Shown here: in pieces, positions 1 to 19,541 of the stretch
Position numbering within the stretch: the stretch's first letter is position 1
How the letters are laid out: every line of letters begins with the position of its first letter
DNA from: Prescottella soli
GTDB lineage: Bacteria > Actinomycetota > Actinomycetes > Mycobacteriales > Mycobacteriaceae
NCBI RefSeq assembly: GCF_040024445.1
Contig: NZ_CP157276.1
Location: 4,898,001-4,962,000 of the forward strand
DNA length: 64,000 bases
Reading direction: 5' to 3'
The notes under the pieces: generated by a model
Database searches by the model: none
What the model saw: only the letters and a program-made list of their open reading frames with translations
Told to the model about the DNA's origin: nothing
Made by a program: the position numbers and the translations under genes

Positions 1-480
1 GGGGGTGTCGCCGACGTAGTAGGCCCGGTCACCGTGGTGCCGGAGTGACCGCAGGACCGAGGTCTTGTCCGCGGCCGGGGCGACCACCGTATCCCAGAGC
101 GCGGGCACGTTCAGGGTGTTGATGTCGAAGGCGACGGCGTCGGCCGACGCAGCGGAGACGACGCCCAGCCAGGCGCCGTTGTCGGCGAGGGCGACTAGGG
201 CGTTGCGTGTGCCGGGACGCAGCGTTGTGATGCGTCGGGTCATCGCTGTGTTCCATCGGGATTCGGCGTCGGGTCCGTGTTCGGGCGGCAGGCCGAGGCT
301 CTCGAACATTTCTGCCATGGGCAGGCGGAACGTGGTGGGGAATTGATCCTTGGACACCGGATCTGCGCCATAGCTCGCCAGTACGTCGTTGAGGGCGTCA
401 CGGGCGCGGTCCGCGTCGCACACGACGGTGCCGTTCCAGTCGAACAGCACCATCGTGTGTGCAGCAGTGGGAGTGCTCAC
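1..480 (-). CDS. HAD-superfamily phosphatase, 3' end outside window
   Basis: This is a haloacid-dehalogenase-type hydrolase, probably a cytoplasmic small-molecule phosphatase. The first 160 residues are visible; the C-terminus lies beyond the window. Motif I reads FDWNGTVVCD with nucleophile Asp14; the usual second Asp of DxD is Asn16, a variant I know from other HAD_2-type proteins. The motif IV region YYVGDTP is at the window edge (Asp158). The GTG start overlaps the stop of the ABC ATPase as GTGA, so the gene is the last visible member of the leftward transport operon and is probably translationally coupled. With the metallophosphoesterase at the other end of the operon, it suggests that the imported compound is dephosphorylated inside the cell. 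The substrate cannot be named. Confidence 0.8.
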   Translation of the reverse strand, partial: MSTPTAAHTMVLFDWNGTVVCDADRARDALNDVLASYGADPVSKDQFPTTFRLPMAEMFESLGLPPEHGPDAESRWNTAMTRRITTLRPGTRNALVALADNGAWLGVVSAASADAVAFDINTLNVPALWDTVVAPAADKTSVLRSLRHHGDRAYYVGDTP

Positions 481-1568
481 GCGCTCACGCTCGCAAGGGT
501 CTCGTTTCGTAGCCCGAGTTCGGTGGCGGTACCCAGCCGGACACCCATTTCGGTCGAGTACACGTGTACGTGCTCGCGGCGCACGCCGATCGTGACCGGC
601 CGGCCAATCCGGGGGGTGTCGGTGACGGGGCAACGAAACGCGACAGTGCTGTGGTCGTCGAGTGCAATCTGTACGACGCGATCCTGGCCGGTCGGTTCGA
701 CGAGGACGACGGTACCGGTCAGTTGCCAGTCGCTCTCGTGTCCGCGCATCGAGAGGTGTTCGGGGCGGATTCCGAGGGTGATCGGTTCGGTCCGGCCGCC
801 GATCGGTCCGAACACCGAGTCCCCGGTGCCGGACACTGGGACGAGGTTCATCGGCGGGGATCCCACGAAACCGGCGACGAAAAGGGTGGCAGGTGCTGCG
901 TAGAGCTCGTCGGGGGTGCCCACCTGTTCGATTCGGCCGTGGTTGATGACTGCGATGCGGTCGGACATCGCCATGGCGTCGAGTTGGTCGTGGGTGACGT
1001 TGATGCCGGTTGCACCGACCTCCCGCAGCAGGGCTGCGATCTCGACCCGGAGCGTCACGTGCAGTTGCGCGTCGAGGCCGGACAGGGGCTCGTCGAGGAG
1101 GACGATGCCGCTCCGGCGGGCGAGCGCTCGTGCTAGCGCGATGCGCTGGCGTTGCCCGCCGGACATCGCTTTCGGCTTGCGGACGAGGAGGTCCTCGACG
1201 CGCATGCGGGTGGCGATGTCGCGGGCCCGAGCCTCGGCTTCCGATTTGGGGAGGCCGAGGCCGTGCCGCAGCCCGAGGGTGATGTTCTCGAGTGCGGTCA
1301 GGTGTGGATAGAGCGCGAAGTGCTGGAAGACGATGGCCGCGTCGCGTTGGTGCGGGGCAATGCCTTCCTGCGGCACGCCGTCGAAGTGGACACTACCGGC
1401 GGTCTGGGTTTCCAGGCCGGCAACGATTCGGAGCAGGGTGCTCTTGCCGGAGCCGGAGGGTCCGAGGATGGCTACCTGTTCGCCGTCGCCGATGGTGAGG
1501 TCGATGCCGTCGAGCGCGGTGACGTCGCCGAAGGATTTGCTGATGCCGTGGAGTTCGACTCGGGTCAT
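477..1568 (-). CDS. ABC transporter ATPase, CUT1 (UgpC/MalK-like) type
   Basis: This is the ATP-hydrolysing subunit of a carbohydrate-type (CUT1) importer, 363 aa. Visible motifs are Walker A GPSGSGKST (36-44), Q-loop Gln82, signature MSGGQ (135-139), Walker B IVLLDE (155-160), D-loop, and H-loop His193 (NVTHDQ). Residues from about 235 form the TOBE-like domain typical of MalK/UgpC ATPases, somewhat shorter than in MalK. It follows the binding-protein gene by 3 nt and overlaps the HAD gene by 3 nt. Such ATPases can be shared between sugar transporters; here it is encoded with its own permeases, so a dedicated role is likely. Confidence 0.95.
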   Translation of the reverse strand: MTRVELHGISKSFGDVTALDGIDLTIGDGEQVAILGPSGSGKSTLLRIVAGLETQTAGSVHFDGVPQEGIAPHQRDAAIVFQHFALYPHLTALENITLGLRHGLGLPKSEAEARARDIATRMRVEDLLVRKPKAMSGGQRQRIALARALARRSGIVLLDEPLSGLDAQLHVTLRVEIAALLREVGATGINVTHDQLDAMAMSDRIAVINHGRIEQVGTPDELYAAPATLFVAGFVGSPPMNLVPVSGTGDSVFGPIGGRTEPITLGIRPEHLSMRGHESDWQLTGTVVLVEPTGQDRVVQIALDDHSTVAFRCPVTDTPRIGRPVTIGVRREHVHVYSTEMGVRLGTATELGLRNETLASVSA

Positions 1569-1571
1569 GTC

Positions 1572-2870
1572 TCAGCCCTGCCCGACGATCGAGTTGATGG
1601 TGGTGACGGCCCGCTTCACTGTGGGCTCGAGTTCGGAACCGGACTGCAATCCCTGCGCCATCTGACGGAGTACGTCGTTGATCTGCGAGGTCCTGGCGCC
1701 GTCGAAGCCGCCCCACGGGGAGAGTTCCTTGGCGTAGGTCCAGGCGTACCGCTGTGGCTGGCGGATGCCGCTGGTGGCCAGCAGTTGTTCGGCGGCCGCC
1801 TTGTCGACCGGGATGTAGGAGTAGTCGGTGCCGCTGGCGGCGAGCACTGCCTCTGTACCGAGGAGTTCGGCGACGAGCGCATTGGCGTAGGCTGCGCGGC
1901 AACCGTCGTCGCTGAGGACGATCCATCCGTTGCCGCCGGCGGGCAGGAGCCCGTCACCGCCGTTGACGGTCGGGAGATCCACTGCTGTCCACTCGAATCC
2001 GTCACCGACGGTATTGTTCACGGATGCGATCATTGAGGTCGCGGTGAAGGCCAGAGCGGTCTGCTGGCTCGTGAAGGCGGAGATCGCATCCGTCTCGTTG
2101 ACACGGGCTTCGAGGCCGCGCTCGTTCAGCTTCGTCCAGAGGGAGAGCGCGTCGATGCCGGTGGCGTCACCGAAACCGGCGGTGCCGTCCGCGTTGACGA
2201 AGGTCCCTCCGGCGCCTTGGACGAAGCCCTGGCCGAGCCAGTCGGGCAGGCGCTGGGTGGGCAGCGACACCGACGGGTTCCCGGTCTTCGCGGTGACTTT
2301 TGAGGCTGCGGTGACGACGTCGTCGAATGTGCGGATGTCGGTGGCCTTGCCCGCGTTCGCGGAGTCGAGCATCGTCTGGTTGACGAGCAGTACCGGGGCG
2401 GATACCTGGGCGGGGGCAAGGTAGACCTTGCCGTCGACCGTACCGGCGGAAAGGAACTGCGACTGGTACGTGTCCGCGAGGCCGGCGGTGTCGATGGTGG
2501 CGGGCGAGTACTTCTCGACCCAGAAGCGGAGCTGGCCGAGGCCACTCATGATGAGGTCGGGGCGTTTGCCGACCGCGATGTCCGCGACGACGGTGTTCGT
2601 GAGTTCGTCGTAGCTCGTCGTCTTCAAGGGTTCCGCGTCGACCGTCAGGCCCGGATACTTCGCCTGCAGGTTCGCGACGGCGACCTTCATGGCGTTCTCG
2701 CCCTGCGATCCGAAGGTCACGTCGAGGGTGTGTTCCGACGGCGTGCAGGAGTTGATGTCCGTCGCTGCCGCGATGGCGGTGTTGGTGGACGAGGCGTTGC
2801 CGCATCCGGTGAGGACGAGGATGCCGGCGGCGAGGGCTCCGGCGGTGCCGGCAAGTCGGGCTGTGCGCAT
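1572..2870 (-). CDS. ABC transporter solute-binding lipoprotein (CUT1 family)
   Basis: This is an extracytoplasmic substrate-binding protein, 432 aa. The start was chosen at the ATG after an AGGAGAA ribosome-binding site; the open frame extends further upstream but lacks a signal there. The N-terminus is a lipoprotein signal peptide with lipobox LTGC and acylated Cys23. The mature part has the family-1 binding-protein pattern (EPLKTTSYDELTN, RPDLIMSGLGQLRFWVEKY, GGNGWIVLSDD). It lies between permease and ATPase genes of the same operon. Relatives bind glycerol-3-phosphate, glycerophosphodiesters or oligosaccharides; the sequence alone does not choose among them. Confidence 0.9.
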   Translation of the reverse strand: MRTARLAGTAGALAAGILVLTGCGNASSTNTAIAAATDINSCTPSEHTLDVTFGSQGENAMKVAVANLQAKYPGLTVDAEPLKTTSYDELTNTVVADIAVGKRPDLIMSGLGQLRFWVEKYSPATIDTAGLADTYQSQFLSAGTVDGKVYLAPAQVSAPVLLVNQTMLDSANAGKATDIRTFDDVVTAASKVTAKTGNPSVSLPTQRLPDWLGQGFVQGAGGTFVNADGTAGFGDATGIDALSLWTKLNERGLEARVNETDAISAFTSQQTALAFTATSMIASVNNTVGDGFEWTAVDLPTVNGGDGLLPAGGNGWIVLSDDGCRAAYANALVAELLGTEAVLAASGTDYSYIPVDKAAAEQLLATSGIRQPQRYAWTYAKELSPWGGFDGARTSQINDVLRQMAQGLQSGSELEPTVKRAVTTINSIVGQG

Positions 2871-2926
2871 GGCGGGTTCTCCTTGGATAAGTGCTGTGAT
2901 GGCGGGTGTCTGTCGAGTGGCTCGAG

Positions 2927-3748
2927 CTATCCGGGAATCTCGGCGCCGCTCATGCCCTGCACGAAACGGCGCTGGGCGGCGAGGAAGAGCAAGACCACGG
3001 GTGCGGTCACGATGACGGCGCCGGCGGCGAGGGCCGCGTAGTCGAAGCCGATGTCGGCATGCTGGAACGCCGCGAGAGCGAGGGGCGGGGTGACGAGATC
3101 GGGGCTGCGCACGACCAGCAGCGGCCACAGGTAGTCGTTCCAGTGAGCGAAGACCGAGAAGACCGAGAAGGCTGCGATGCCGGGGCCCGCGAGCGGCACC
3201 ACGATCTTGCGCAGGATCTGAAAGTGGCCCAGACCGTCGGTGCGGGCGGCTTCGAGGAGAGAGTCGGGGATGGAGAGCATCTGTTGGCGCAGGAGGAAGA
3301 TTCCGAAAGCGCTTGTGGTGAAGGGAAGGACGAGTCCGGCGTAGCTGTCCGCGAGACCTGCGGCGTTGATGCCGATGAAGGTGGGAATCATGGTGGCCTG
3401 TGAGGGCATGAGCAGACAGGCGAGCACTATCAGGAACACCACCGACGATGCCCGCGTGCGCACTTTGGCCAGGACGTAGGCCGCGGGTATGCAGGTCGCG
3501 AGTTGTAGGGCGAGTATCGAGAGGGTCACGATCAGCCCGGTGACGACGGCCCGTCCCATTCCCGCGTCCCCCCAGGCCCGGGCATAGGACGAGAGGTCGA
3601 ATTCGGTGGGGATGAACGGAATGCCGCTCTTGTTGGCCTGTTCCACCGGGGCGAGCGAGGTGCGGATCATCCAGTAGAGCGGAAACAAGCTGATGACGAC
3701 GGCGACGGTGAGTAGGACCCACCGGGTGCCGCGGACGAGGATGCTCAT
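2927..3748 (-). CDS. ABC transporter inner-membrane permease (MalG/UgpE type)
   Basis: This is the second membrane subunit of the CUT1 importer, 273 aa, with about six hydrophobic segments. It starts MSILVRGTRWVLLTVAVV, and the start ATG overlaps the upstream permease stop by 4 nt. The cytoplasmic EAA loop that contacts the ATPase is visible as EAARTDGLGHFQILRKIVVP followed by LAGPG. The C-terminus (FVQGMSGAEIPG) resembles the UgpE/MalG ending (RFVAGLTAGAVKG type). It pairs with the permease at 3745-4671 to form the channel. Confidence 0.92.
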   Translation of the reverse strand: MSILVRGTRWVLLTVAVVISLFPLYWMIRTSLAPVEQANKSGIPFIPTEFDLSSYARAWGDAGMGRAVVTGLIVTLSILALQLATCIPAAYVLAKVRTRASSVVFLIVLACLLMPSQATMIPTFIGINAAGLADSYAGLVLPFTTSAFGIFLLRQQMLSIPDSLLEAARTDGLGHFQILRKIVVPLAGPGIAAFSVFSVFAHWNDYLWPLLVVRSPDLVTPPLALAAFQHADIGFDYAALAAGAVIVTAPVVLLFLAAQRRFVQGMSGAEIPG

Positions 3749-4671
3749 CGGTTCTCTCCGGTCAGTAGGCGACGTTGGAGTACGCCGACGGTGATCAGGG
3801 CGACGAGGAGCAGTAACGACAGGGCGGAGGCCGCACCGAGGTCGTAGTAGCTGAACCCGAGCTTGTAGGACTGGGTGAGCACGGTTTCGGTGGAGTTGAG
3901 TGGACCGCCCTGGGTCATCACATTGACCGCGTCGAAGACCTGCACCGAGTGGAGGATCGCGAGGACGGTTGCGAAGACGACGGTCGGCTTCATCATCGGC
4001 AGCGTGATGCGCCACAGCTTGGGGAGACCGCGGATTCCTTCGGCCCGGGAGGCCTCGTCGATGGTGGTCGGGATCGTCGCGAGGCCGGCGATGAAGATCA
4101 TCATGCTGAAGGAGGCGCCGCGCCAGATCCCGACGACGGCGACCGTCAGCAGGGAGGTGTCGGGGTCGCCGAGCCAGTTCACCGGGGCCATACCGAGGAA
4201 GCCGAGTAGCTGGTTGACGAAGCCGCCTTGGTAGGCGAAGAGCCACCGGAACACGACTGCCATGGCCACCAGATTCGCCGTCATCGGCAGGAACAGAGCG
4301 GTACGCACCCAGGTTCGGCCACGGCCGACGGACTCGGCGAGCAATGCGAGAACGAGACCGATCGCAAGGCCGGGGACGACGGTCAGCACGGTGTAGACGA
4401 GGGTGTTGACTATCGACTGTTGCACCGTCGGGTCGGTGATGATCCGCTGGAAGTTGGCGAATCCGACGAACTTCCACGCCCCTCCGGCGAGCGGCACAGC
4501 GAAGAAGCTCGCGACGAGCGACAATATCGCGGGCACGATCACGAACAGAGTCATCGCGATGCCGGCGGGCAGCACCAGCAAAGCCGGGGCGAACCGGTCG
4601 CCGCGCCGACCGCGACGCCGCTCGATCGCGCGTGGAACGACGCGGTCGGGTGCGTCGATGGTGGCGGTCAT
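3745..4671 (-). CDS. ABC transporter inner-membrane permease (MalF/UgpA type)
   Basis: This is the first membrane subunit of the CUT1 importer, 308 aa. A basic N-terminus (IERRRGRRGDRFAP) precedes six hydrophobic segments. The EAA loop reads DEASRAEGIRGLPKLWRITLP followed by MMKP, the ATPase-contact motif of binding-protein-dependent permeases. A typical MalF/UgpA feature is the GGPLNSTETVLTQSYKLGF stretch near the C-terminus. The start ATG overlaps the stop of the phosphoesterase gene by 4 nt, and its own stop overlaps the next permease, so the genes are tightly coupled. Confidence 0.92.
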   Translation of the reverse strand: MTATIDAPDRVVPRAIERRRGRRGDRFAPALLVLPAGIAMTLFVIVPAILSLVASFFAVPLAGGAWKFVGFANFQRIITDPTVQQSIVNTLVYTVLTVVPGLAIGLVLALLAESVGRGRTWVRTALFLPMTANLVAMAVVFRWLFAYQGGFVNQLLGFLGMAPVNWLGDPDTSLLTVAVVGIWRGASFSMMIFIAGLATIPTTIDEASRAEGIRGLPKLWRITLPMMKPTVVFATVLAILHSVQVFDAVNVMTQGGPLNSTETVLTQSYKLGFSYYDLGAASALSLLLLVALITVGVLQRRLLTGENR

Positions 4672-6824
4672 CCCGCGCCACCGATCGTCGCGGGGTCGAG
4701 TGCGAGGACGGTGCCGTCGGTGCCGACTGCGAGGACACGGTCCCCCGCGTCGGTGAGCGCGGCAGCGAATGGTGAGGCGTACTGGGTTCGGCCCAGCTCG
4801 GTCCCGTCGAGGTCGATGCGGCGGATCGTGCCGTCGAGTCCGGGCAGTAGAAGGTGCTGGTCGCGCAGCAGCGGCGGCGCGATGACGGGGTGAGGACGCT
4901 TGGTGTACGAGCTCATCGGGAACGGAGCGTCGCCGTCGATCGCGGCTTCCCAGATTGTCTCGCCGGTGTCGGGGTCGAGCATCCGTAGTCCCAGCCCGGG
5001 CACGGTGACGACGTAGCCGTGCCCGGTGATCACCGGGGTGGTCGGGGCGTAATTGCCCGGGTGCGAAGCGGTCCAGAGCGTGGCACCGGTACCTCGGTCG
5101 AGGGCCGTGGTGTGGCCGTGTGCGGGCATGACCACGACATCGCGCGCCGCATCGTGTGCTCCTGTGCCGATGATCAGCAGTCGCTTCAACGATGTGAACG
5201 GGTCGTCGGAGTCGAGATCTGAACGATTCCAACGGGATTCGCCGGTACGTGCGTCGAGGCCAATCGGGTCCGTCGGGGTAGGCCAGAAGCCCATGACGAG
5301 GAGGTCGTCGACGACCAGTGGGGCCGCATGATTGACGAGGTTGTGGTGGGGGGAGAGGTCGGTTCGGTGCCAGATGTACTGCCCCGTGCGGGCGTCGATG
5401 GCGCGGAGATCGGACGGATCCCCGAGGTAGACGGTCCCGTCGACGAGCGTCGGTGCCCCCCAGGCGAAGCGGCGCAGCGGGTCGCTCGAAGCGGCACGCC
5501 AGCATTCCTCCCCGGTTGACGTGTCGAGGGCCACGACGTCCCCGGAGACCTCCGCGGCGATCACCAGACCGTCACCGACAACCGGTGTCGTCTTCACCGC
5601 GGATCGGGTCCGGGCCCGCCACCGCACCGCACCGGTTTCGAGGTCGAGGCATTCGACGGTGCCGGCGGGGCGGTCCTCGATCTGGGTACCGACGTAGACC
5701 GCGCCGTCGTGTACCGCGGCGCCGTGCCGATGCCCGGCACCGGTCGCGTGCGCGGACCACAGGATCGACTTGTCGGTGGAGGTCACGGTCGCAGCCGAGA
5801 ACGTCGATGTACGCACGTCCGTCAGGGCCTCGGGTGCCTCACCGGGCAAGAAGGTTTCGGTGTGCAAGGTGACAGTCGTGCCGTCCCAGACCACGTGCCG
5901 GAATCCCGGCGGACTGTAGTCGAGGTTCGCGAAGAACGTGGCCGGACTGTTGACGTGCAGCGTGCCGTCGACGTCGATGACACGGCTGGTGTGCCAGTGC
6001 CCGGACAGCGCCGCGATCGGCCGCCACGGGAGTTCGTCGAGAATGGAGGCGTTCGGCTGATCGTGGAAAAGCAGCAGGTACGGGGCACCGAACTCCAGTT
6101 GAGCGAGATCCGCCTTGACCCAGGCATTCTGGATCTCGTGGTCGATGCCGGCTTCGTGGCTGTGCCAGTCCAAGCCGACGATATGCAGGCCTGCGACGTC
6201 GAGGCTGAACCACCGCGGGCCCAGGTAGCGCTCGTACAGGGTCGGGTCCGAGGAATTGGTGAGGTAGTTGTTGCGGCTGATCGTGAAGCCGCGTTCACCG
6301 TTCATGTGGTCGTGGTTGCCCGGGATCAACTCGACCGGCACCGGGCTGGACCGCAGGGCCTCGATGTATGCCTCGTATTCCTCCGGCAACCCGTTGTCGA
6401 CGAGGTCTCCGGTGACGAGGATGCGTCGCGCAGCGGGCGCGAGTGTCGGTAGGCGGTCGAGGAATCCCACGACCTGTTCGGGCAGGCTCCCCTCCGCGTA
6501 CAAGCGGTGGGTGTAGTAACCGGCGTCGATGACATCCCGGGTCGTCATGTGGGTGTCGGTGAGGTGGAGGAACTCGTACGGCAGGGGTTGGTCTTCGGGG
6601 ACGAGAACGAAACGGAGTTCGGTGTCGTCGGTGTCGGGAACACGGTGCCACCAGGGAGCGGCGGTGTAGCCGGTGGGCCGGGTGAGGACGACGAACCCTC
6701 CCCACTCCGCTTGGCGGGCGAGGGTGAAACGGCCGTCGTCATCAGTCTTGGTGACGACGCCACCAGTGGCGACGGCCACCCCCGCGGCGGGGGTGCCGTC
6801 GTCGTACAACACGATGCCGTGCAT
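4668..6824 (-). CDS. Metallophosphoesterase fused to PQQ-type beta-propeller
   Basis: This 718-aa protein has three parts. Residues 1-78 resemble the Ig-like MetallophosN/carboxypeptidase-regulatory fold (GVAVATGGVVTKTDDDGRFTL). Residues 85-290 are a calcineurin-like phosphoesterase with a complete metal-ligand set: LTDTH (Asp90, His92), TGDLVDNG (Asp140), GNHDH (Asn170, His171), LLFHD (His254), SGHWH (His276, His278). From about 345 to the end are PQQ/WD-like propeller blades (repeated GLDARTGE, ALDTSTGE, ALDRGTGA). Known relatives with MetallophosN usually carry a MetallophosC domain instead. No signal peptide is visible, so it appears cytoplasmic, unusual for PQQ-propellers. An AAAGGAG site precedes the ATG. 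It heads the transporter genes, 60 nt after the rpiR-type regulator. It probably hydrolyses a phosphate mono- or diester. Confidence 0.88.
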   Translation of the reverse strand: MHGIVLYDDGTPAAGVAVATGGVVTKTDDDGRFTLARQAEWGGFVVLTRPTGYTAAPWWHRVPDTDDTELRFVLVPEDQPLPYEFLHLTDTHMTTRDVIDAGYYTHRLYAEGSLPEQVVGFLDRLPTLAPAARRILVTGDLVDNGLPEEYEAYIEALRSSPVPVELIPGNHDHMNGERGFTISRNNYLTNSSDPTLYERYLGPRWFSLDVAGLHIVGLDWHSHEAGIDHEIQNAWVKADLAQLEFGAPYLLLFHDQPNASILDELPWRPIAALSGHWHTSRVIDVDGTLHVNSPATFFANLDYSPPGFRHVVWDGTTVTLHTETFLPGEAPEALTDVRTSTFSAATVTSTDKSILWSAHATGAGHRHGAAVHDGAVYVGTQIEDRPAGTVECLDLETGAVRWRARTRSAVKTTPVVGDGLVIAAEVSGDVVALDTSTGEECWRAASSDPLRRFAWGAPTLVDGTVYLGDPSDLRAIDARTGQYIWHRTDLSPHHNLVNHAAPLVVDDLLVMGFWPTPTDPIGLDARTGESRWNRSDLDSDDPFTSLKRLLIIGTGAHDAARDVVVMPAHGHTTALDRGTGATLWTASHPGNYAPTTPVITGHGYVVTVPGLGLRMLDPDTGETIWEAAIDGDAPFPMSSYTKRPHPVIAPPLLRDQHLLLPGLDGTIRRIDLDGTELGRTQYASPFAAALTDAGDRVLAVGTDGTVLALDPATIGGAG

Positions 6825-6884
6825 TGTGAACTCCTTTGTGGCGCTGACACGCCGAGACTGTGGGGTGCGGTTCAGGCGGACTGG

Positions 6885-7772
6885 TCAGATGCGGTGCTCG
6901 ATGAGCACGTCTTCGGCGAGAGCGAGGGCAGTTCCGCTGGTTTCGGCGCGACGGGAAAGGTTGACGTACAGAGCGTCGAGTACGGCGAGATGCACGATGC
7001 GACTGGACATCGCTTCGACGCGATAGCTGGTCTCGACGCTGCCCGCGACGATGCTCACGGCCACCTCTTCGGTCAACGGTGAGGAGGAGAAGCTCGTGAG
7101 GGCGACGGTGACGGCCCCGGATGCCTTGGCGGCTCGGGTCGTCGCGAGGGTTTCGACGGTGGATCCGGTGTGGCTGATCGCGAAGAAAACGTCGTCGGGG
7201 CCGAGCATGCGTGCGGTGACATGCTGGCTGTGCACGTCAGGGGTGAAGGAAGCGTCGAGGCCGAGAGAGACGAACCGGTACGCGGTGTCGAGTGCGAGCG
7301 GCGCGGAGGTACCGACGGCCCCGAACACGATGCGACGGGCGCCGAGCAGGTGGTCGACGGCCGTCTCGATGGCATGAACGTCGAGGGCTTTCGAAGCATT
7401 GTCGACAGCTCGGGCAGTACTGTCCATGACCTTGTGGGCGATGTCGCCGGCGGTGTCGTCGGGTGTGATGTCGCCGAGTACGCGGCGATCGTCGGGGATC
7501 GATTCGCTCGCGAGGGTGATCTTGAGTTCCTGGTAGCCCCGAAGGCCTAGCGTCGTGCACAGCCGCACGACTGTGGCGGGCGAGCTGCCAGCGGCGGCCG
7601 CGAGTTCGGTCACCGAACGGTGGATCACTGCGGCGGGCTCACTCAGAATCGCCTCGGCCACACGACGTTCTGCCGGTGTGAATGAGACCGATGCCGCCCG
7701 GATGCGTTCGACGATGCCTGCTCCGCCCGTCGATGTGGTCGACACCTTTTCTACGGGAATCGTGTTGGTCAC
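6885..7772 (-). CDS. RpiR-family regulator (HTH + SIS domain)
   Basis: This is a transcription regulator of 295 aa from a GTG start (VTNTIPVEKV). The frame stays open 46 codons further upstream, but that part covers palindromic DNA and reads unlike the family. Residues about 17-95 form the RpiR helix-turn-helix (RSVTELAAAAGSSPATVVRL). A SIS sugar-phosphate-binding domain follows (IVFGAVGTSAPLALDTAYRF; FAISHTGSTVETL). Family members sense phosphorylated sugars, which fits the phosphatases and CUT1 transporter encoded 60 nt downstream on the same strand. The gene may be the first of that operon and autoregulated through the palindromes just upstream. Confidence 0.9.
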   Translation of the reverse strand: MTNTIPVEKVSTTSTGGAGIVERIRAASVSFTPAERRVAEAILSEPAAVIHRSVTELAAAAGSSPATVVRLCTTLGLRGYQELKITLASESIPDDRRVLGDITPDDTAGDIAHKVMDSTARAVDNASKALDVHAIETAVDHLLGARRIVFGAVGTSAPLALDTAYRFVSLGLDASFTPDVHSQHVTARMLGPDDVFFAISHTGSTVETLATTRAAKASGAVTVALTSFSSSPLTEEVAVSIVAGSVETSYRVEAMSSRIVHLAVLDALYVNLSRRAETSGTALALAEDVLIEHRI

Positions 7773-7798
7773 AAGCGGACAGCAAACCCGGGATGGTT

Positions 7799-7873
7799 GA
7801 ACGAATTTCGTTCCCGAGATGAACCAGATGTGAAATTTCATACCGGCCTTAGTCGTGGAACTCATTTTCACGA
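7799..7873. promoter_or_regulatory. Three palindromes upstream of the RpiR-type gene (candidate operators)
   Basis: Directly upstream of the regulator start lie GAACGAA-T-TTCGTTC (7799-7813, perfect 7-bp arms), TGAAATTTCA (7831-7840, perfect), and an imperfect palindrome at 7853-7873 with ends TCGTG/CACGA. Their centres are about 30 and 28 bp apart, close to three helical turns, so bound dimers would lie on roughly one DNA face. Position and spacing suggest autoregulation of the RpiR gene and its downstream operon. Inference only. Confidence 0.55.
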
Positions 7874-8062
7874 GACGGTGCCTCCGCTCGCGACGTCGAC
7901 CACCGTGCAACGCGATTCACTACACCTCCGATCTGTGGTGTCTCGTGATCGCCCGCGTGTCTGCGGTTGCCCCGCCGTAAAGATCGCATCAATACGCTCG
8001 GTTGGCGGCGTCAGCAGAGTGTCAGGACGACGTCCGTGCGCTCGAAACGGGTGCACTCTCCA

Positions 8063-8114
8063 GTAGGCGCCGGATGCGGCGTCTCCACGTCGCGCCGTCG
8101 TCCGGTGCGCCTAC
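8063..8114 (+). promoter_or_regulatory. Stem-loop in the kdp leader
   Basis: GTAGGCGC (8063-8070) pairs with GCGCCTAC (8107-8114). CGGA (8071-8074) pairs with TCCG (8101-8104) after a 2-nt bulge, and a nested CGGCG/CGCCG stem lies inside. The element ends 23 nt before the first small ORF of the kdp locus, so it is probably in the 5' untranslated leader. It matches no riboswitch I recognise. Confidence 0.4.
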
Positions 8115-8137
8115 TGAGGAAGTCGAAGAGGAACGTC

Positions 8138-8230
8138 ATGGCTGATTTGGCCTACGTCGGGTTGATCATCGGAGTGTTCACCGTCTGTGCGCTGGTGTTG
8201 CGTGGTCTGCAGGCGAGGAGCCTCCGGTGA
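8138..8230 (+). CDS. 30-aa membrane peptide at the head of the kdp operon
   Basis: This tiny reading frame encodes MADLAYVGLIIGVFTVCALV followed by a basic tail LRGLQARSLR: one predicted membrane segment with a positively charged, probably cytoplasmic C-terminus. A GAGGAACGTC stretch sits before the ATG. Its TGA overlaps the GTG start of kdpF as GTGA, which argues for translation and coupling. It is not KdpF, which follows. It could be a second small stabilising subunit of the Kdp complex or a leader peptide for kdpF. No function is established. Confidence 0.65.
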   Translation: MADLAYVGLIIGVFTVCALVLRGLQARSLR

Positions 8231-8325
8231 CCGTAGCCGGGACGGTCAGTGTCGCCGTCGTCGTGATCGCCGCTGCCCTGGTGATCTACCTGCTCATCGC
8301 GCTCCTGAACCCCGAGCGGTTCTAG
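8227..8325 (+). CDS. kdpF: KdpF small membrane subunit of the K+-transporting ATPase
   Basis: The product is 32 aa, from a GTG start overlapping the upstream micro-ORF. It has a single hydrophobic helix followed by the KdpF-typical ending LLNPERF (compare LL.PE(R/K)F in the family). KdpF is a lipid-like stabiliser of the KdpABC complex in the membrane. It lies 21 nt before kdpA. Confidence 0.9.
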   Translation: MTVAGTVSVAVVVIAAALVIYLLIALLNPERF

Positions 8326-8346
8326 TCCTCGAGAGGTCCCTCGCAC

Positions 8347-10047
8347 ATGAATCCCGCTCTCGCAGCGGGACTGCAGATAGCACTGGTCATTGCCGTGCTA
8401 GCGATTCTGTACGTCCCCGTCGGTGACTACATGGCCAAGGTCTACACCACCGACACCGATCTCCGATCCGGCGATTTGCGCATCGAATCCACGCTCTACC
8501 GGCTGTGCAGGGTCAACCCCCGCGCCGAACAGACCTGGTACGGATACGCCGGGAGCCTGCTCGGCTTCTCGGCCGCCAGCGTGCTGTTCCTCTACTTTCT
8601 GCAACGCGTCCAGGGAGTGCTGCCGCTCAGCGGCGGCCACGAAGGCGTGAGCCCCGCCGTCGCGTTCAACACCGCCGTGTCGTTCGTCACCAATACCAAC
8701 TGGCAGTCGTACGTCCCCGAGACGACGATGAGTAACTTCACGCAGGCCGCCGGCCTGGCGGTCCAGAACTTCGTATCCGCCGCGGTCGGCATGGCTGTCG
8801 CGGCCGCCCTGATCCGCGGATTCATCCGTGTCTCGCGGGGCGGCGAGATCGGCAACTTCTGGGTCGATCTCACCCGCGGTTGCCTGCGCATCCTGCTGCC
8901 GATCTCGTTCGTCATCGCGCTGATCCTGCTGAGCCAGGGCGTCATCCAGTCGTTCCACACCGGCTTCGCCTCGACCGGACTCGACGGCAACAGCGTCAGC
9001 AACGCGCTCGCGCCGGTCGCGTCGCAGGAGGCCATCAAGGAACTCGGCACCAACGGTGGCGGCATCCTCGCGGCCAACTCCGCCCATCCGTTCGAGAATC
9101 CGACGCCGCTCACCAACGTCGTCGAGATCCTCGCCATCCTGCTCATCCCCGTCAGCCTGACGCGCACGTTCGGCACGATGGTCGGCGACCGCCGGCAGGG
9201 CCTGACCCTGCTCGCCGTGATGTCGACGCTGTACTTCGGTCTGCTCGCGGTGACCCTGACCGCGGAATCCGGAGCGCGGGGCGTCGCTGCCACCGCGGCC
9301 GGATCGATGATGGAGGGCAAGGAGGTCCGATTCGGGATCCCCGGTTCGGCCCTGTTCGCCGTCACCACCACCGGCACCAGCACCGGTGCCGTCAACTCGG
9401 CCCACGACAGCATTTCCCCGCTCGGCGGTGGCGCGGTGCTGCTCAACATGCTGCTCGGCGAGATCGCACCGGGCGGCGTGGGAACCGGTCTGTACGGAAT
9501 CCTGGTGCTCGCGCTGATCGCGGTGTTCGTCGGCGGTCTGCTCGTCGGCCGCACGCCCGAGTACCTCGGCAAGAAGCTGGGACAGCGCGAGATCACGCTC
9601 GCCGCACTGTCGGTGCTCGTGATGCCGGCGCTCGTGCTGATCGGCACCGGCATCACGGTGATCCTCGGGTCCACCGTCGGATACCTCGGCAACAGCGGCG
9701 ATCCCGGCACCCCGCAGTCCATCCACGGCTTCTCCGAGGTGCTCTACGCGTTCACCTCGGCGTCGAACAACAACGGCAGCGCGTTCGGCGGCATCACCGT
9801 GACCAGCGACTGGTTCCAGTCGGCGCTCGGTGTGTGCATGGCGCTGGGACGATTCCTGCCGATCCTGTTCGTGCTCGCGCTCGCCGGATCGCTGTCCGCG
9901 CAGCGCCGGACCCCGGCCGGTGCGGGCACCCTGCCCACCTCCGGCGCGATGTTCACCGGCCTGCTCACCGGCACCGTGGTGCTGGTCGCGGCCCTCACCT
10001 TCTTCCCGGCCCTGGCACTCGGGCCCATCTCGGAGGCCCTGCAATGA
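8347..10047 (+). CDS. kdpA: Potassium-transporting ATPase subunit A (KdpA)
   Basis: This is the K+-selective channel-like subunit of the high-affinity Kdp ATPase, 566 aa, the normal length. Selectivity-filter-like segments of the four pseudo-repeats are visible: [44 protein letters not shown] and [13 protein letters not shown]. About ten membrane helices are present. Its stop overlaps the kdpB start (ATGA), so A and B are translationally coupled. Together with KdpB, KdpC and KdpF it scavenges K+ at micromolar concentrations. Confidence 0.98.
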
Positions 10048-12170
10048 GTCTGCGGACGGAATCAACAGTGAACCCGACCGACACCCTTCCGGATCTACCC
10101 GTCGAGGAGTCCGCGCACGGTCACTCGCACGTGCAGGCGGGCATCTTCAGCCCGCGACAGCTGATCACGTCGTTGCCGGGTGCCGTGCGCAAGCTCGACC
10201 CGCGCCATCAGGCGCGCAACCCGGTGATGTTCGTCGTGCTGGTCGGCTCGATCGTCACGACCGTCATGGCCGTCGCGCAGCCCACGGTGTTCTCGTGGCT
10301 GATCGCCGCGTGGCTCTGGTTCACCGTGCTCTTCGCGAACCTCGCCGAGTCGGTCGCCGAGGGACGCGGCAAGGCACAGGCCGCGAGCCTGCGGAAAGTG
10401 AAGCAGGACACCGTCGCCCGCCGCCTGACCGCGTCCGGCGCGATCGAGGAGGTGTCGGCCACCCAGCTCGCGATCGGCAACACCGTGGTGGTCGAGGCAG
10501 GAGAGGTGATCCCCGGTGACGGCGACGTCATCGAAGGCATCGCGACCGTCGACGAGTCGGCGATCACCGGCGAATCCGCCCCCGTCGTACGCGAATCCGG
10601 CGGCGACCGCTGTGCGGTGACCGGTGGCACGACCGTGCTGTCGGACCGGATCGTCGTGCAGATCACGTGCGCTCCGGGGCAGTCGTTCGTCGACCGGATG
10701 ATCGCACTCGTCGAGGGGGCGTCGCGCAAGAAGACGCCCAACGAGATCGCGCTCAACATCCTGCTCGCGTCGCTCACGATCATCTTCCTGCTTGCCGTCG
10801 TGGCGATCGGCCCCATGGGGCAGTACGCGGGTCAGGAGCAGGATCCGATCAAGCTCATCGCGCTGCTGGTGTGCCTGATCCCCACCACGATCGGTGCGCT
10901 GTTGTCCGCCATCGGTATTGCGGGCATGGACCGGTTGGTGCAGCGCAACGTCCTGGCGATGTCGGGCCGCGCGGTCGAGGCGGCCGGCGACATCGACACG
11001 CTGCTGATGGACAAGACCGGCACCATCACCTTCGGCAACCGTCGCGCGACGGCGTTGTACCCGGCCCCGGGCCATTCGGAGGATGAACTGGCCGCCGCCG
11101 CACGGCTGTCCAGCCTCGCCGACGGGACCCCCGAGGGACGCAGCATCGTCGAGTTGTGCGCCGAACGATTCGGGCTCTCCTCCGATCCCAGCGACCACGA
11201 GCGGGACGCCGAGTTCGTGCCGTTCACGGCGCAGACACGCATGAGCGGACTCGACATCGCGACGTCGACCGGCCCGCAGCAGATCCGCAAGGGCGCCGGA
11301 GACGCCGTGCTCGCGTGGGTGTCCGGATACGGTGCTGCCGTGGATCCCGCCGTGTCGGATTCCGTCGAGAAGGTCGCGTTGGCGGGCGGCACCCCTCTCG
11401 TCGTGGCGGTCGCCGAGCGCGGCACGGCGACGGTGCTGGGCGTGATCGCCCTGACGGACGTCGTCAAGCCCGGGATCGCCGAGCGCTTCGCGGAACTGCG
11501 GGCAATGGGTATCCGGACGATCATGGTGACCGGCGACAACCCGCTGACCGCACGGGCCATCGCGGAGGAGGCCGGCGTCGACGACTTCATGGCCGAGGCC
11601 ACGCCCGAGGACAAGCTCGAGCGGATCCGCGCCGAGCAGGAGGGCGGACGTCTGGTCGCGATGACCGGTGACGGCACCAACGACGCCCCTGCCCTGGCGC
11701 AGGCCGACGTCGGCGTCGCGATGAACACCGGAACGTCGGCGGCCAAGGAAGCCGGCAACATGGTGGACCTCGATTCGGATCCCACCAAGCTCATCGAGGT
11801 CGTCGAGATCGGAAAGCAGCTGCTCATCACGCGCGGCGCCCTCACGACGTTCTCGCTCGCCAACGACCTCGCGAAGTACTTCGCGATCCTGCCGGCGTTG
11901 TTCAGCGCGATCTACCCGCAGCTCGGGGTGCTGAACATCATGCATCTGGCGACGCCGCAGTCCGCGATCCTGTCCGCGGTGATCTTCAACGCGCTGGTCA
12001 TCGTCGGGCTGATCCCGTTGGCGCTCAGGGGAGTTCGCTACCGGCCCGCCGCGGCATCGAAGCTGCTGGGCCGGAACCTGTTGATCTACGGTGTGGGTGG
12101 TGTCGTCACCCCCTTCATCGGCATCTGGCTGATCGACCTCGTCGTCCGCCTCATTCCTGGAATCGGGTGA
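10044..12170 (+). CDS. kdpB: Potassium-transporting P-type ATPase subunit B (KdpB)
   Basis: This is the catalytic P-type ATPase of the Kdp complex, 708 aa from the ATG that overlaps the kdpA stop. The open frame extends upstream through kdpA, but that part is not coding. Motifs are actuator TGES ([10 protein letters not shown]), phosphorylation motif DKTGT with Asp323, nucleotide-binding KGA(GD) region, and hinge [10 protein letters not shown] near residue 541. It energises K+ uptake through KdpA. The N-terminal segment before [10 protein letters not shown] has a His-rich run ([10 protein letters not shown]). Confidence 0.98.
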
Positions 12171-12171
12171 A

Positions 12172-12828
12172 ATGTCAATGAGATTCGGAATCGGACTTCT
12201 CAAGCAGGTGTGGGCCGGGCTGCTCGTGCTGCTCGCGCTCACCGCGATCCTCGGTGTGCTGTACCCGGCCGCCGTGTGGGGTGTCGGGCGCATCAGCTCC
12301 GGCTCGGCGGAGGGCTCGCCGGTGACCGACGCCGCGGGCTGCGTGGTGGGTAGCCGCTGGATCGGGGTCGACTCCCAGGTGCAGGAGGGCAAGCCGGATC
12401 CGTTCTTCCACAACCGGGTCGTCGGCTCGGTCGCGGACGGCGATCCCTTCGCCACCGGCGACCCGGCCGCGGCGCTGCCGTCCAACCAGGGCCCCAGCAG
12501 CGAGGTGCTCGCCGGATTCGTCGAGGCACGTCGGGCCGCGATCGCCGAGCGGGAGGGTGTCGCTCCGCAGGACGTTCCGGTCGACGCCGTCACGGGCTCC
12601 GGATCCGGGGTCGATCCGCACATCTCGCCCGCGTACGCGGCCCTGCAGGTGCGGCGGGTCGCGGCCGCCAACGGAGTGAGCGAGGACCGTGTCCGCGAGC
12701 TGGTCTCCGAGCACACCGAGGGCCGTCAACTCGGATTCCTCGGGGCCGAGCGGGTGAACGTGCTCGAACTCAATCTCGCACTGGGCCTGACCGCGCCTGG
12801 GTGCGGCGCGGCGCAGTCGGGTGAATGA
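12172..12828 (+). CDS. kdpC: Potassium-transporting ATPase subunit C (KdpC)
   Basis: This is KdpC, 218 aa, anchored by one N-terminal membrane helix (LLVLLALTAILGVLYPAAVW). Conserved family blocks are visible: GSRWIGVDSQ, FHNRVVG, LPSNQGPSS, DPHISPAYAALQVRRVA. It stabilises the KdpAB complex and affects ATP affinity. It begins 1 nt after kdpB. Its 3' end overlaps or abuts the GTG starts available to kdpD. Confidence 0.97.
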   Translation: MSMRFGIGLLKQVWAGLLVLLALTAILGVLYPAAVWGVGRISSGSAEGSPVTDAAGCVVGSRWIGVDSQVQEGKPDPFFHNRVVGSVADGDPFATGDPAAALPSNQGPSSEVLAGFVEARRAAIAEREGVAPQDVPVDAVTGSGSGVDPHISPAYAALQVRRVAAANGVSEDRVRELVSEHTEGRQLGFLGAERVNVLELNLALGLTAPGCGAAQSGE

Positions 12829-12835
12829 TGGCGGT

Positions 12836-15344
12836 GTGACGATTCCGGAGGATCAGCGAGCGCGACGCCGCGGTGAGCTGCGGATCTATCTCGGTGCGGC
12901 GCCGGGCGTCGGCAAGACCTACGCGATGCTCGGAGAGGCGCACCGCGCAGCAGCTCGAAGGGCTCGAGGTCATCCCGCCCAAGTACATCGAGTACCGGGG
13001 GACCGCGATGCCGGAGCTCGACGTCGCGGCCGTGCTGGCCCGGCGTCCGGCCGTCGTCCTCGTCGACGAACTGGCGCACACCAACACCCCGGGCAGCCGC
13101 AACGAGAAGCGCTGGCAGGACGTCTACGAGCTGCTCGACGCCGGCATCGACGTCCTGTCGACGCTCAACGTCCAGCACCTCGAGAGCCTCAACGACGTGG
13201 TGCAGCAGATCACCGGCATCGCGCAGCAGGAGACCGTGCCGGACGAGGTGGTGCGCGCCGCCACCCAGGTCGAACTCGTCGACATCACACCGGAAGCGTT
13301 GCGGCGCAGGCTCTCCCACGGCAACGTGTACTCCGCCGACAAGGTGGACGCGGCGCTCGGCAACTACTTCCGTCGTGGAAACCTCACGGCGCTACGCGAA
13401 CTCGCGCTGCTGTGGGTGGCCGATCAGGTGGACGCCGCGCTCGCGAAGTACCGGGCCGAGAACAAGATCACCGACATGTGGGAGGCCCGCGAGCGGGTCG
13501 TCGTGGCCGTCACCGGCGGCCCCGAGTCGGAGACACTCGTCCGGCGAGCCAGCCGCATTGCCAGCAAGGCCAGCGCCGAGCTGATGGTGGTGCACGTCGT
13601 GCGCGGCGATGGGCTCGAGGGCGTGTCCGCCGGCGACATGGGCAAGGTGCGCAAGATCGCCGCCAGCATCGGCGCGAGCCTGCACAGCGTCGTCGGCGAC
13701 GACGTCCCCACGACGCTGCTCGAGTTCGCCCGCGAGGTCAACGCGACCCAGCTGGTGATCGGCACGTCCCGACGGTCTCGGTGGGCGCGGATCCTCGACG
13801 AGGGCATCGGGGCCGCGATCGTCCAGCAGTCCGGGAAGATCGACGTCCACATGGTCACCCACGACGAGGCCGCGACCCGGCACCGGATCTCGATCCTGGG
13901 CCGTGGGGAGCGCCGGGTGGTCTCGTGGCTCGCGGCGGTCGTCGTGCCGTCGCTGGCAGCCGTGCTGATGGGCGTGCTCGACCGGTTCTCCGGCGTAGGC
14001 GGCCAGAACGCGCTGTTCTTCGTCGTCGTGCTCGCTGTCGCGCTGCTCGGCGGCGTCGGACCGGCGATCCTCTCCGCGCTCATCTCCGGTTTACTGCTCA
14101 ACTACTTCTTCACCGCGCCGCTCTACAGCTTCACCATCGCGCAGCCCGACAACTTCATCACCACCATGGTGCTGTTGGTGGTCGCGGTGGCGGTCGCCGT
14201 GCTCGTCGACGCCGCCGCCAAACGTGCGCGCGAGGCCCGGCGGGCGTCGCAGGAGGCCGAGCTGCTGGCACTGTTCGCCGGGTCCGTGCTGCGCGGGGCC
14301 GACCTGCCGGCGCTGCTCGAGAAGGTGCGGGAGACGTACGCGCAGACGGGCGTCAGCGTCATCCGTCGCGGCGAGGGGGTGATCAGCTCCGCGGGCGCCT
14401 CGCCGCCGCGCACCGTCGACGACGCCGGGACGGTGTGCGAGGTGGGCGACGGCGAGTACACGCTGCTGCTCGCGGGCAGCGAACTCGGCGCCAGGGACCG
14501 GAAGGTGCTCAACGCGGTCGCGAACCAGGCGGTCGGACTGATCCGGCAGCGGCAGCTGGCGGAGGAGGCCAGCCAGGCGTCGGCGCTGGCGGAGGCGGAC
14601 CGGTTGCGGCGGTCGCTGCTCTCGGCCGTCAGCCACGATCTGCGCACGCCGCTGGCCGCGGTCAAGGCAGCCGTGTCGAGCCTGCGCAGCGACGACATCG
14701 AGTTCTCGCCCGAGGACACCGCCGAACTCCTGGCGACAGTCGAGGAGTCGACCGATCAGTTGACGGCGCTGGTCGGCAATCTCCTCGACTCGTCGCGGCT
14801 GGCAGCGGGCGTGGTCAAGCCGACGCTGCGGCGGGTGTACCTGGAGGAAGTGGTGCACCGGGCCCTCGTCGGCGCCGGTTTCGGCGGGCCCGGTTCGGCG
14901 CGGCGCGTGCGGGACCAGGTGAAGGTCGAGGTGGGCGCTGCCGCGGTGATGGCCGACGCCGGGCTGCTCGAGCGGGTCCTGGCGAACCTCGTCGACAACG
15001 CGCTGCGGTACGCGCCGGACGAGCCCGTCCGGATCGGTGCGGCGCGGGTGGGGGACCGGATGACGATCACCGTCGCCGACACGGGCCCCGGTCTGGCCCG
15101 CGGCACGCACGATCAGGTGTTCGATGCCTTCCAGCGGCTCGGCGACCGGGACAACACGATCGGCGTCGGTCTGGGATTGTCGGTGGTCAAGGGATTCGTG
15201 GAAGCGATGGGTGGAACCGTCAGTGCGACGGACACGCCGGGGGGCGGATTGACGATGGTCGTCGAGCTGGCCGCCAGCCCGGTCGGAACCGGAGCCGGAG
15301 ACACGCCGGCGGGGCCGGCCGAAGATACGGAAGGAGCCCGATGA
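12836..15344 (+). pseudogene. kdpD: kdpD sensor kinase, frameshifted in the N-terminal KdpD domain
   Basis: KdpD is the membrane histidine kinase that controls kdp. The 5' part (GTG 12836, or GTG 12821) reads ELRIYLGAAPGVGKTYAML-GEAHR with an intact Walker A. The continuation (QQLEGLEVIPPKYIEYRG onward) is in another frame. About 20 residues usually found between EAHR and LEGL, including the VETHGR segment, are missing. The junction contains cgcaccgc, consistent with a microhomology deletion of length 2 modulo 3 (about 60 nt). Downstream all looks intact: DELAHTNTPGS, a USP-like domain, four membrane helices, H-box SAVSHDLRTPLAAVK, N-box NLVDNALRYAP, G-boxes. Translation from ATG 13007 would give a kinase without Walker A. 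An assembly or sequencing error is possible. The stop overlaps kdpE (ATGA). Confidence 0.85.
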
Positions 15345-16021
15345 CCCGGGTGTTGGTGGTCGACGACGAGCCGCAGATCCTGCGTGCACTACGGATCAAC
15401 CTGAGTGTCCGCGGCTACGAGGTCACGACGGCGTCGACCGGCGCTGCGGCGCTGCGGGCGGCGGCCGAGAAGCACCCCGAGGTGGTGGTGCTCGACCTCG
15501 GCCTGCCCGACATGGACGGCATCGAGGTGCTCGCGGGGCTGCGGGGCTGGTGCACGGCTCCGGTGATCGTGCTGTCGGCGCGCACGGACTCGTCGGACAA
15601 GGTCGAGGCGCTCGACGCCGGCGCCGACGACTACGTCACCAAACCGTTCGGGATGGACGAGTTCCTCGCCCGGCTGCGGGCCGCGGTGCGGCGTGGGGCG
15701 GCCGCGGCGGAGACGAGCGAACCGGTGGTGACCACCGACTCGTTCACGGTCGATCTGGCGGCGAAGAAGGTCACCCGAGACGGGGCCGAAGTGCACTTGA
15801 CACCCACCGAGTGGGGGATGCTCGAGATGCTCGTGCGCAACAAGGGCAAGCTCGTCGGGCAGAAGGAACTGCTGCGCGAGGTCTGGGGTCCGGCGTATGC
15901 CACCGAGACGCACTACCTGCGGGTCTACCTCGCTCAGCTGCGCCGCAAGCTGGAGGTGGATCCGTCGAAGCCGCGGCATCTGCTGACCGAGACCGGCATG
16001 GGATATCGCTTCCAGGTTTAG
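15341..16021 (+). CDS. kdpE: KdpE response regulator (OmpR family)
   Basis: The product is 226 aa. The receiver domain has acidic pocket DDE (8-10), phosphorylation Asp52 (VLDLGLPDMDG) and Lys101 (VTKPFG). A winged-helix DNA-binding domain follows (HLTPTEWGMLEMLVRNKGKL, LRVYLAQLRRKLE, GMGYRFQV). The start ATG overlaps the kdpD stop. It activates kdp transcription in response to KdpD; if kdpD is truly broken, KdpE may depend on another phosphodonor or on a truncated kinase. Confidence 0.97.
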   Translation: MTRVLVVDDEPQILRALRINLSVRGYEVTTASTGAAALRAAAEKHPEVVVLDLGLPDMDGIEVLAGLRGWCTAPVIVLSARTDSSDKVEALDAGADDYVTKPFGMDEFLARLRAAVRRGAAAAETSEPVVTTDSFTVDLAAKKVTRDGAEVHLTPTEWGMLEMLVRNKGKLVGQKELLREVWGPAYATETHYLRVYLAQLRRKLEVDPSKPRHLLTETGMGYRFQV

Positions 16022-16050
16022 CAACTGACGGTCGGTTTCCGACTGGCGCG

Positions 16051-16066
16051 CGGGACGGCCGTCCCG
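16051..16066. repeat. Perfect 16-bp palindrome between kdpE and the AGCS gene
   Basis: CGGGACGGCCGTCCCG is fully self-complementary and sits 14 nt before the GTG start of the symporter gene. It could be an operator or a chance GC-rich palindrome. As an RNA it lacks the loop and T-run of a standard terminator. Confidence 0.4.
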
Positions 16067-16079
16067 CATAGTCCCTGGT

Positions 16080-17531: not shown

Positions 17532-17964
17532 ACAGACTCCGCAATCCGCTCCCGCGCCGACCGAGCTGTGGGTCGAACGCACCGGCACCCGCCTCTACAC
17601 CGGCCGTAGCTCTCGCGGTGCCGAGGTGCGTATCGGGTCGGAATCGGTGGAGGGCGTCTTCACCCCCGGCGAACTGCTCAAGATCGCCCTGGCCGCGTGC
17701 TCGGGCATGAGCTCGGACTTCCCGATCTCGCGCCGGCTCGGCGACGACTACGACGCCACCATCCGCGTCTCGGGAGCCGCAGACCGGGAGAACGAGGTGT
17801 ACCCGCACCTCGAGGAGACCCTCGAACTCGACCTCAGCGAACTCGACCCCGAGGCCCAGGACAGGCTGGTCACGCTCGTCGAGCGTTCGGTCGACAAGGT
17901 GTGCACCGTCGGCCGCACGCTCAAGGCGGGCACCAACGTCACGCTGAAGATCACGCGGGGCTAG
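17524..17964 (+). CDS. OsmC/Ohr-family peroxide-reducing protein
   Basis: The product is 146 aa, starting MAEQTPQSAPAP. Two conserved cysteines of the OsmC/Ohr family are visible: AACSGMSSDF (reactive Cys) and KVCTVGRTLKAG (partner Cys). The family reduces organic or lipid hydroperoxides in the cytoplasm. The fold pattern FTPGELLKIALAACSG is characteristic. The gene overlaps the preceding symporter by 8 nt, though no functional link is evident. Whether it is an OsmC or Ohr subtype is not clear from sequence reading. Confidence 0.9.
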   Translation: MAEQTPQSAPAPTELWVERTGTRLYTGRSSRGAEVRIGSESVEGVFTPGELLKIALAACSGMSSDFPISRRLGDDYDATIRVSGAADRENEVYPHLEETLELDLSELDPEAQDRLVTLVERSVDKVCTVGRTLKAGTNVTLKITRG

Positions 17965-19526: not shown

Positions 19527-19541
19527 GGCGTCGAAGAGTCG

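Follow-up and report, generated by a model that had tools for sequence, protein, structure and literature searches.

A large pool of phosphorus lies in organic phosphodiesters, for which, to our knowledge, few uptake routes are known beyond those for glycerophosphodiesters and agrocinopine. The logic of uptake and salvage is already known from ugp with UgpQ and from the agrocinopine acc operon, each with enzymes other than those described here. The Agrobacterium acc operon, in the passages of the source drawn on here, comprises AccA with AccBCDE, AccF, AccG and AccR for agrocinopine catabolism (PMC4526662). In the Ugp system, UgpB contacts the phosphate through two Tyr and two Ser residues and holds the glycerol moiety by a clamp of two Trp residues and an Arg that contacts the glycerol hydroxyls (PMC12718374). 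Here, we describe a seven-gene cluster of Prescottella soli that lies at the start of a 64,000-nt stretch of contig NZ_CP157276.1 (positions 4,898,001 to 4,962,000; hereafter the window) and encodes an RpiR/MurR-family regulator, a metallophosphoesterase fused to a propeller, a complete CUT1 importer and a HAD-family hydrolase. We read the cluster, with a probability of about 0.6, as a system for the import of a non-glycerol phosphodiester and its cleavage in the cytoplasm; the diester is probably sugar- or polyol-linked and not simply a glycerophosphodiester. This reading is built on the gene content, the conservation of the genes as a unit, their family placement and their conserved ligand residues, all of which were observed directly. 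A search of the open-access literature, judged by titles and abstract openings, found no description of the seven-gene set.

All seven genes lie on the minus strand according to their open reading frames and Pfam matches, and they form a compact operon (Table 1). The first-pass annotation of this DNA had listed the same set and had described overlaps of 3–4 nt throughout. The set is confirmed, and, from the esterase gene on, three junctions out of five are overlaps of 4 nt (esterase/permease 1, permease 1/permease 2 and ATPase/HAD); the other two are gaps, of 3 nt between the genes for the solute-binding protein (SBP) and the ATPase and of 56 nt between those for permease 2 and the SBP. The rpiR and esterase genes are spaced by 60 nt. 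The 3′ end of the HAD gene is at position -173, 173 nt outside the window, and the gene was completed from the host genome, a single contig of 5.48 Mb (L009:11827-12480).

The order of these genes was compared in 14 CUT1-linked relatives (L016, L017, L018, L019, L034, L035, L036, L051, L052, L053, L114, L115, L116 and L117); L118 duplicates the L019 record, and a match at a contig edge (G1054) was left out of the neighbourhood set. L017 is a 3.5-kb contig with only the esterase, a permease and a partial permease, which is consistent with the order and was left out of the 13 testable loci. The order RpiR–esterase–permease–permease–SBP–ATPase is kept in all 13 of these relatives outside the window, including L036, where the esterase was missed by the gene caller and a genome search puts it between RpiR and the permease. 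A HAD gene is likewise present at every testable locus. It is of the same type as in the window and follows the ATPase gene in eight loci (L016, L018, L019, L051, L052, L053, L114 and L116), is of the same type and divergent beside rpiR in two (L034 and L117), and in three (L035, L036 and L115) a different HAD with a canonical motif I follows the ATPase gene, as judged by eye from the translations. The window HAD matches those of L035 and L036 with E values of only 0.006 and 0.15, respectively. The occupation of one slot by unlike HADs is an argument for a HAD step in the pathway. With near-duplicates among the 13 loci (L052/L053, L035/L115, L034/L117, and L016/L019 with the window), there are about nine independent lineages, the window's genus included. 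Chance adjacency of the seven genes is ruled out by the order kept in all testable loci and, since this order recurs outside the window's family, the cluster lies far beyond chance. The conserved linkage on which the proposal of the first-pass annotation depended is borne out.

Table 1. Features of the cluster and its surroundings (window coordinates).
Feature	Position	Strand	Remarks
RpiR/MurR-family regulator (HTH_6 + SIS)	6885..7772	-	First cluster gene, start codon uncertain; Pfam HTH_6 1.1e-20, SIS 1.9e-15
Metallophosphoesterase-propeller, 718 aa, cytoplasmic	4668..6824	-	Pfam Metallophos and PQQ_2 over cut-off
CUT1 permease 1, UgpA-like	3745..4671	-	BPD_transp_1; 4-nt overlap with esterase gene
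CUT1 permease 2, UgpE-like	2927..3748	-	BPD_transp_1; 4-nt overlap with permease 1 gene
Lipoprotein SBP, UgpB side of CUT1	1572..2870	-	SBP_bac_1
CUT1 ATPase, UgpC-like	477..1568	-	ABC_tran and TOBE_2
HAD-family hydrolase (phosphoglycolate-phosphatase-like), 5′ part	1..480	-	GTG start at 480; HAD_2 1.5e-14
Candidate RpiR operator TGAAAATGAGTTCCA	7856..7870	-	Putative; fits a 15-bp palindrome that relatives also have upstream of rpiR
Divergent kdp operon	upstream of cluster		Named by reading translations, not by family search
Convergent PPOX-like gene and MocR/PdxR-like gene	downstream of cluster		Named by reading translations, not by family search

The importer has every part of the CUT1 type: an SBP_bac_1 lipoprotein, two BPD_transp_1 permeases and an ATPase with a TOBE domain. 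The SBP has the lipobox-like sequence LTGC. The best NCBIfam models are UgpA for permease 1 (124.7 bits, cut-off 335), UgpE for permease 2 (121.6 bits, cut-off 297) and UgpC for the ATPase (342.8 bits, cut-off 432), so none of the three reaches the cut-off of its curated Ugp model; the glucose permeases GlcT (101.8 bits) and GlcU (108.5 bits) and MalK (302.3 bits) follow, respectively. The SBP is also placed on the UgpB side of CUT1, both in the SBP tree and in the fold comparison. For its model, the fold comparison ranks UgpB from E. coli and mycobacterial UgpB at the top, one of these rows with glycerophosphocholine, and a cyclic-maltooligosaccharide-binding protein is level with UgpB. The SBP profile finds first a CUT1 protein whose crystal structure contains a dinucleotide phosphodiester (4.1e-13).

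The Ugp model scores and the UgpB-like fold of the SBP, together with the resemblance of the esterase to GpdQ, are what a Ugp variant would predict, in which glycerophosphodiesters such as glycerophosphocholine or glycerophosphoinositol are the substrate, with the esterase standing in for UgpQ. However, the ligand residues of the SBP agree with UgpB only at part of the phosphate contacts. Ser157 and Tyr352 correspond, in our mapping, to UgpB phosphate contacts (PMC12718374) and are invariant in 9/9 cluster SBPs. Both equivalents occur in seven of 28 other SBP_bac_1 proteins (30 extracted from 98 matches, minus two members) and are absent from MalE and YcjN. Tyr87 is also invariant and matches a Tyr in the dinucleotide protein and in UgpB, yet it falls three columns off in the larger alignment, and the column of the second phosphate-contacting Ser holds Ala, Thr or Ser. 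At the columns of the glycerol-clamp Trp pair and of the Arg, none of the nine cluster SBPs has Trp or Arg. The exact Ugp system is rejected on the missing clamp and Arg. Moreover, further UgpB-like binding proteins are encoded in the same genome, one of them next to a GDPD gene, and the glycerol-3-phosphate released from such a substrate could be metabolised without help from a HAD phosphatase. We therefore regard a glycerophosphodiester substrate as unlikely.

In a second alternative, a neutral sugar or polyol would be imported and phosphorylated elsewhere, the esterase and the HAD would serve intracellular compounds or side products, and RpiR would sense an ordinary sugar phosphate. Transporters of the CUT1 type mostly carry neutral sugars, the SBP alignment has no invariant basic residue, and both the tie in the fold comparison and the glucose and maltose transporter scores just behind those of Ugp fit this idea. 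However, the conserved phosphate-contact Ser and Tyr and the constant company of the esterase and HAD genes at the 13 testable loci speak against it, and none of the seven proteins is recognised by Pfam as a kinase, a glycosidase or a sugar dehydrogenase; we hold it to be quite unlikely. The SBP, in the UgpB part of CUT1 and with the Ser and Tyr kept, instead agrees with the import of a phosphorylated or phosphodiester compound, as had been proposed from the sequence.

The esterase consists of a small N-terminal β domain (residues ~1–70), a metallophosphoesterase domain (~70–325) and a BamB-like propeller (~350–714), which by analogy with BamB may have eight blades. A match to MetallophosN stays under the cut-off (31.4 against 35.6 bits). 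The metal-binding motifs D-x-H, GD, GNHD, H and GHxH are invariant in 15/15 esterase rows. The nearest solved relatives of the esterase-domain profile are Rv0805 (4.5e-11) and 2zo9 (5e-10), which we take to be GpdQ and whose record reads phosphohydrolase, although the best-scoring stretches with both are confined to roughly the first 100 positions of the profile (261 in all). Purple acid phosphatases (2.3e-7) and SbcD/Mre11 nucleases (3.7e-5) rank behind them. Judged from these relatives, the enzyme is most likely a phosphodiesterase. The structural model of the whole protein is confident (pLDDT 85.8, pTM 0.88); the best 50 rows of its fold comparison are all propellers and hence uninformative on the esterase domain. 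Tetrathionate hydrolase, a designed propeller and BamB head this comparison and, with the sequence matches being partial, a quinoprotein function of the propeller was dropped. The protein was said to be intracellular, which is supported in that it shows no N-terminal hydrophobic segment like that of the binding protein: by a crude measure, its best 15-residue mean is 1.29 against 2.07, and the ranges are 0.0 to 1.61 for 20 esterases and 2.07 to 2.31 for three binding proteins.

The kinship with Rv0805, for which cAMP-hydrolytic activity is reported (PMC3776917), raises a third alternative, that the operon takes up dinucleotides or cyclic nucleotides, which the Rv0805-like esterase would cut before their dephosphorylation. 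The dinucleotide-binding protein at the head of the SBP profile search points the same way, as do weak NCBIfam matches of the esterase to SpdA and CpdA-type cyclic-nucleotide diesterases. However, the seven proteins include no product of a nucleoside or base catabolism gene by Pfam, and regulators of the RpiR/SIS type are usually tied to sugar phosphates. A nucleotidic substrate is therefore very unlikely in our view.

The HAD hydrolase is the weak spot in our own reading of the cluster. In canonical HAD phosphatases, motif I is DxDxT/V and the second Asp, at position +2, is the acid–base residue. The cluster HAD instead has Asn at +2: its motif I is DWNGT in 8/8 aligned rows and also in L114, L116 and L117, whereas the HADs of L035, L115 and L036 and five solved relatives (DxDxT) keep the Asp. 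A different chemistry was considered. In the phosphonatase PhnX, a Lys of the cap domain forms a Schiff base; no cap Lys is invariant in seven rows, and the PhnX model scores 21.3 bits (cut-off 220), so this assignment was ruled out. The Asn at +2 is thus a separate mechanistic puzzle. The first-pass annotation named two phosphatases; one of them, the esterase, is most likely a diesterase and the other is without the usual acid–base Asp, so this description is not supported in that form. Its broader proposal, import of a phosphorylated or phosphodiester compound followed by dephosphorylation, is partly supported, by the linkage, the placement of the SBP, the kin of the esterase, the SIS loop of the regulator and the second CUT1 operon described below, and is weakened at its last step by the missing Asp.

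The regulator combines HTH_6 with a SIS domain whose phosphate loop is intact; the loop is SHTG[SQ]T in 11/11 regulators adjoining esterase-propeller genes, in keeping with the sugar-phosphate-sensing role given to it earlier. A palindromic motif search in nine 200-nt upstream regions (L053 was omitted as a near-copy) predicts the palindrome YGGAA-N5-TTCCR. The width-15 palindrome lies 88–101 nt upstream of the called start in six of the nine loci and elsewhere in three, and these distances depend on the called starts since the rpiR start codons are uncertain. Its score is above those of all 40 approximate dinucleotide shuffles; six widths had first been tried, each against 12 plain shuffles, and the chosen sites shift between widths or runs at several loci. 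Window positions 1–20000 contain no Rfam family at gathering score.

The esterase-propeller is rare and patchy across the sampled genomes. It was sought in whole genomes with a single protein (E <= 1e-20), which found it in 5/151 genomes of the family and 5/396 of a phylum sample, or with profiles (E <= 1e-60), which found it in 6/394 of a class sample, 11/401 of a larger family sample and 4/35 and 1/22 genomes of two other families; the samples overlap, and the window's own genome is counted in all but the last two. The esterase is 96% identical in the P. agglutinans and P. defluvii records. Within the genus, three of the 14 genomes listed in the larger family sample carry the cluster. In members without it, PPOX and kdpA are adjacent, ~345–475 nt apart, in 5/5 checked; the cluster is an accessory insert, and the operon was therefore gained or lost there as a block. 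In the window, the cluster stands divergently beside kdp (positions 7773-8346). The Microbacteriaceae copies (L017 and L018) nest within a group otherwise from the window's family (esterase tree, 99/97), which suggests horizontal transfer. A plasmid search with the binding protein gave 28 records, all below 60% identity; the 20 listed are 22–27% identical. Several single loci carry further peculiarities. An eighth gene follows the HAD gene in L053 (L053:15423-16490), encoding a further metallophosphoesterase-domain protein, and in L052 (L052:16008-16649), encoding a shorter protein that is alike by eye to the former and has no Pfam match. The L019/L118 and L117 assemblies are incomplete (79% and 75% complete) and contain several broken reading frames, possibly sequencing errors.

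A second operon in the same genome (L092:4476-11644, equal to G000:C1:4462475-4469643) combines RpiR, a CUT1 transporter, Metallophos and Y_phosphatase3. It shares the functional formula of the window cluster, and its SBP lies in the neighbouring CUT1 branch (SBP tree, 97/99). However, its metallophosphoesterase has no propeller, an enzyme of a tyrosine-phosphatase family replaces the HAD, its SBP is only ~22% identical and the SIS loop of its regulator is SDSGMN. The combination of RpiR, CUT1, metallophosphoesterase and phosphatase is here repeated with a different phosphatase. Among three operons of this neighbouring branch, Metallophos is found in 3/3, Y_phosphatase3 in 2/3 (L092 and L095) and a recognised RpiR in 1/3 (L092), where L095 is a 3.3-kb contig and the scan of L094 covered seven neighbours. 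At L093, which has the closest SBP (L081), neither Metallophos nor Y_phosphatase3 was found among the four neighbours scanned.

Other esterase-propellers stand in a different setting. In the esterase tree, CUT1-linked members (12 rows) and phosphonate-linked members (3 rows) form separate groups, each with 100/99; the latter are 26–28% identical to the window protein. On a Rhodococcus plasmid (L042:7333-14873), the esterase-propeller accompanies RpiR, a PhnZ-like HD oxygenase (TIGR03276, 213.8 bits, cut-off 214.6; solved relatives TmpB and PhnZ) and a methylphosphonate-hydroxylase-like (PhnY*-like) gene (257.8 bits, cut-off 500). For a Dietzia plasmid (L044:5347-12861), the deposited annotation shows this gene order too. 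A locus of another family (L054:8844-15559) has the PhnY*-like/PhnZ-like pair by BLAST (56% and 65% to L042) and no recognised RpiR, and L055 has only an RpiR fragment beside the esterase. At L038, the esterase-propeller is found with an SBP_bac_6 ABC transporter and another HAD; L037, beside a branched-chain-type ABC gene, does not fit. Distant esterase-propeller genes also lie near PhoX (L039:10730-12319) and CYTH/CHAD (L040:2890-4320), which likewise concern phosphorus metabolism. The metallophosphoesterase-propellers might be an undescribed enzyme family for organic phosphorus esters, phosphonate monoesters included, an idea that we consider somewhat unlikely. If it is true, such an enzyme would open, in the window branch, a CUT1-fed route under RpiR control for a phosphonate or phosphate diester of a sugar, the first such route known.

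In the diester pathway that we infer for the window cluster, from the substrate class to each catalytic and regulatory step, the surface lipoprotein would bind the diester via the phosphate contacts common to UgpB, and the two permeases with the ATPase would import it intact. The cytoplasmic metallophosphoesterase-propeller would then split it into an alcohol and a phosphomonoester, from which the HAD hydrolase would free the phosphate. RpiR may repress the operon from the palindrome upstream of its own gene and be released once its SIS domain binds the phosphomonoester. The cassette joins a binding protein, an unusually built diesterase and a dedicated sensor, so identification of the substrate by a binding screen could be straightforward.

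Several described systems come close to parts of this scheme. The esterase is similar to the class III phosphodiesterases Rv0805 and GpdQ in its esterase-domain profile and metal ligands; it differs by the added N-terminal β domain and propeller. The Acc proteins probably belong to families other than those of the window cluster. Even so, the acc system is alike in the ABC import of an intact sugar phosphodiester, in a cytoplasmic phosphodiesterase, AccF, and a putative phosphatase, AccG, and in a repressor bound by the phosphomonoester product, whereas a metallophosphoesterase-propeller, a HAD and an RpiR go unmentioned in the passages of that source used here (PMC4526662). Lastly, Ugp (ugpBAECQ of E. 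coli and mycobacterial UgpABCE) resembles the cluster in that its CUT1 transporter falls on the same side of the tree, its SBP has a Ser and a Tyr phosphate contact in common with the cluster SBP and, in E. coli, a phosphodiesterase gene, ugpQ, is linked to it. Compared with Ugp, the window cluster has a diesterase of another family, lacks the Trp clamp and Arg, scores below the Ugp model cut-offs, and adds an RpiR regulator and a HAD hydrolase.

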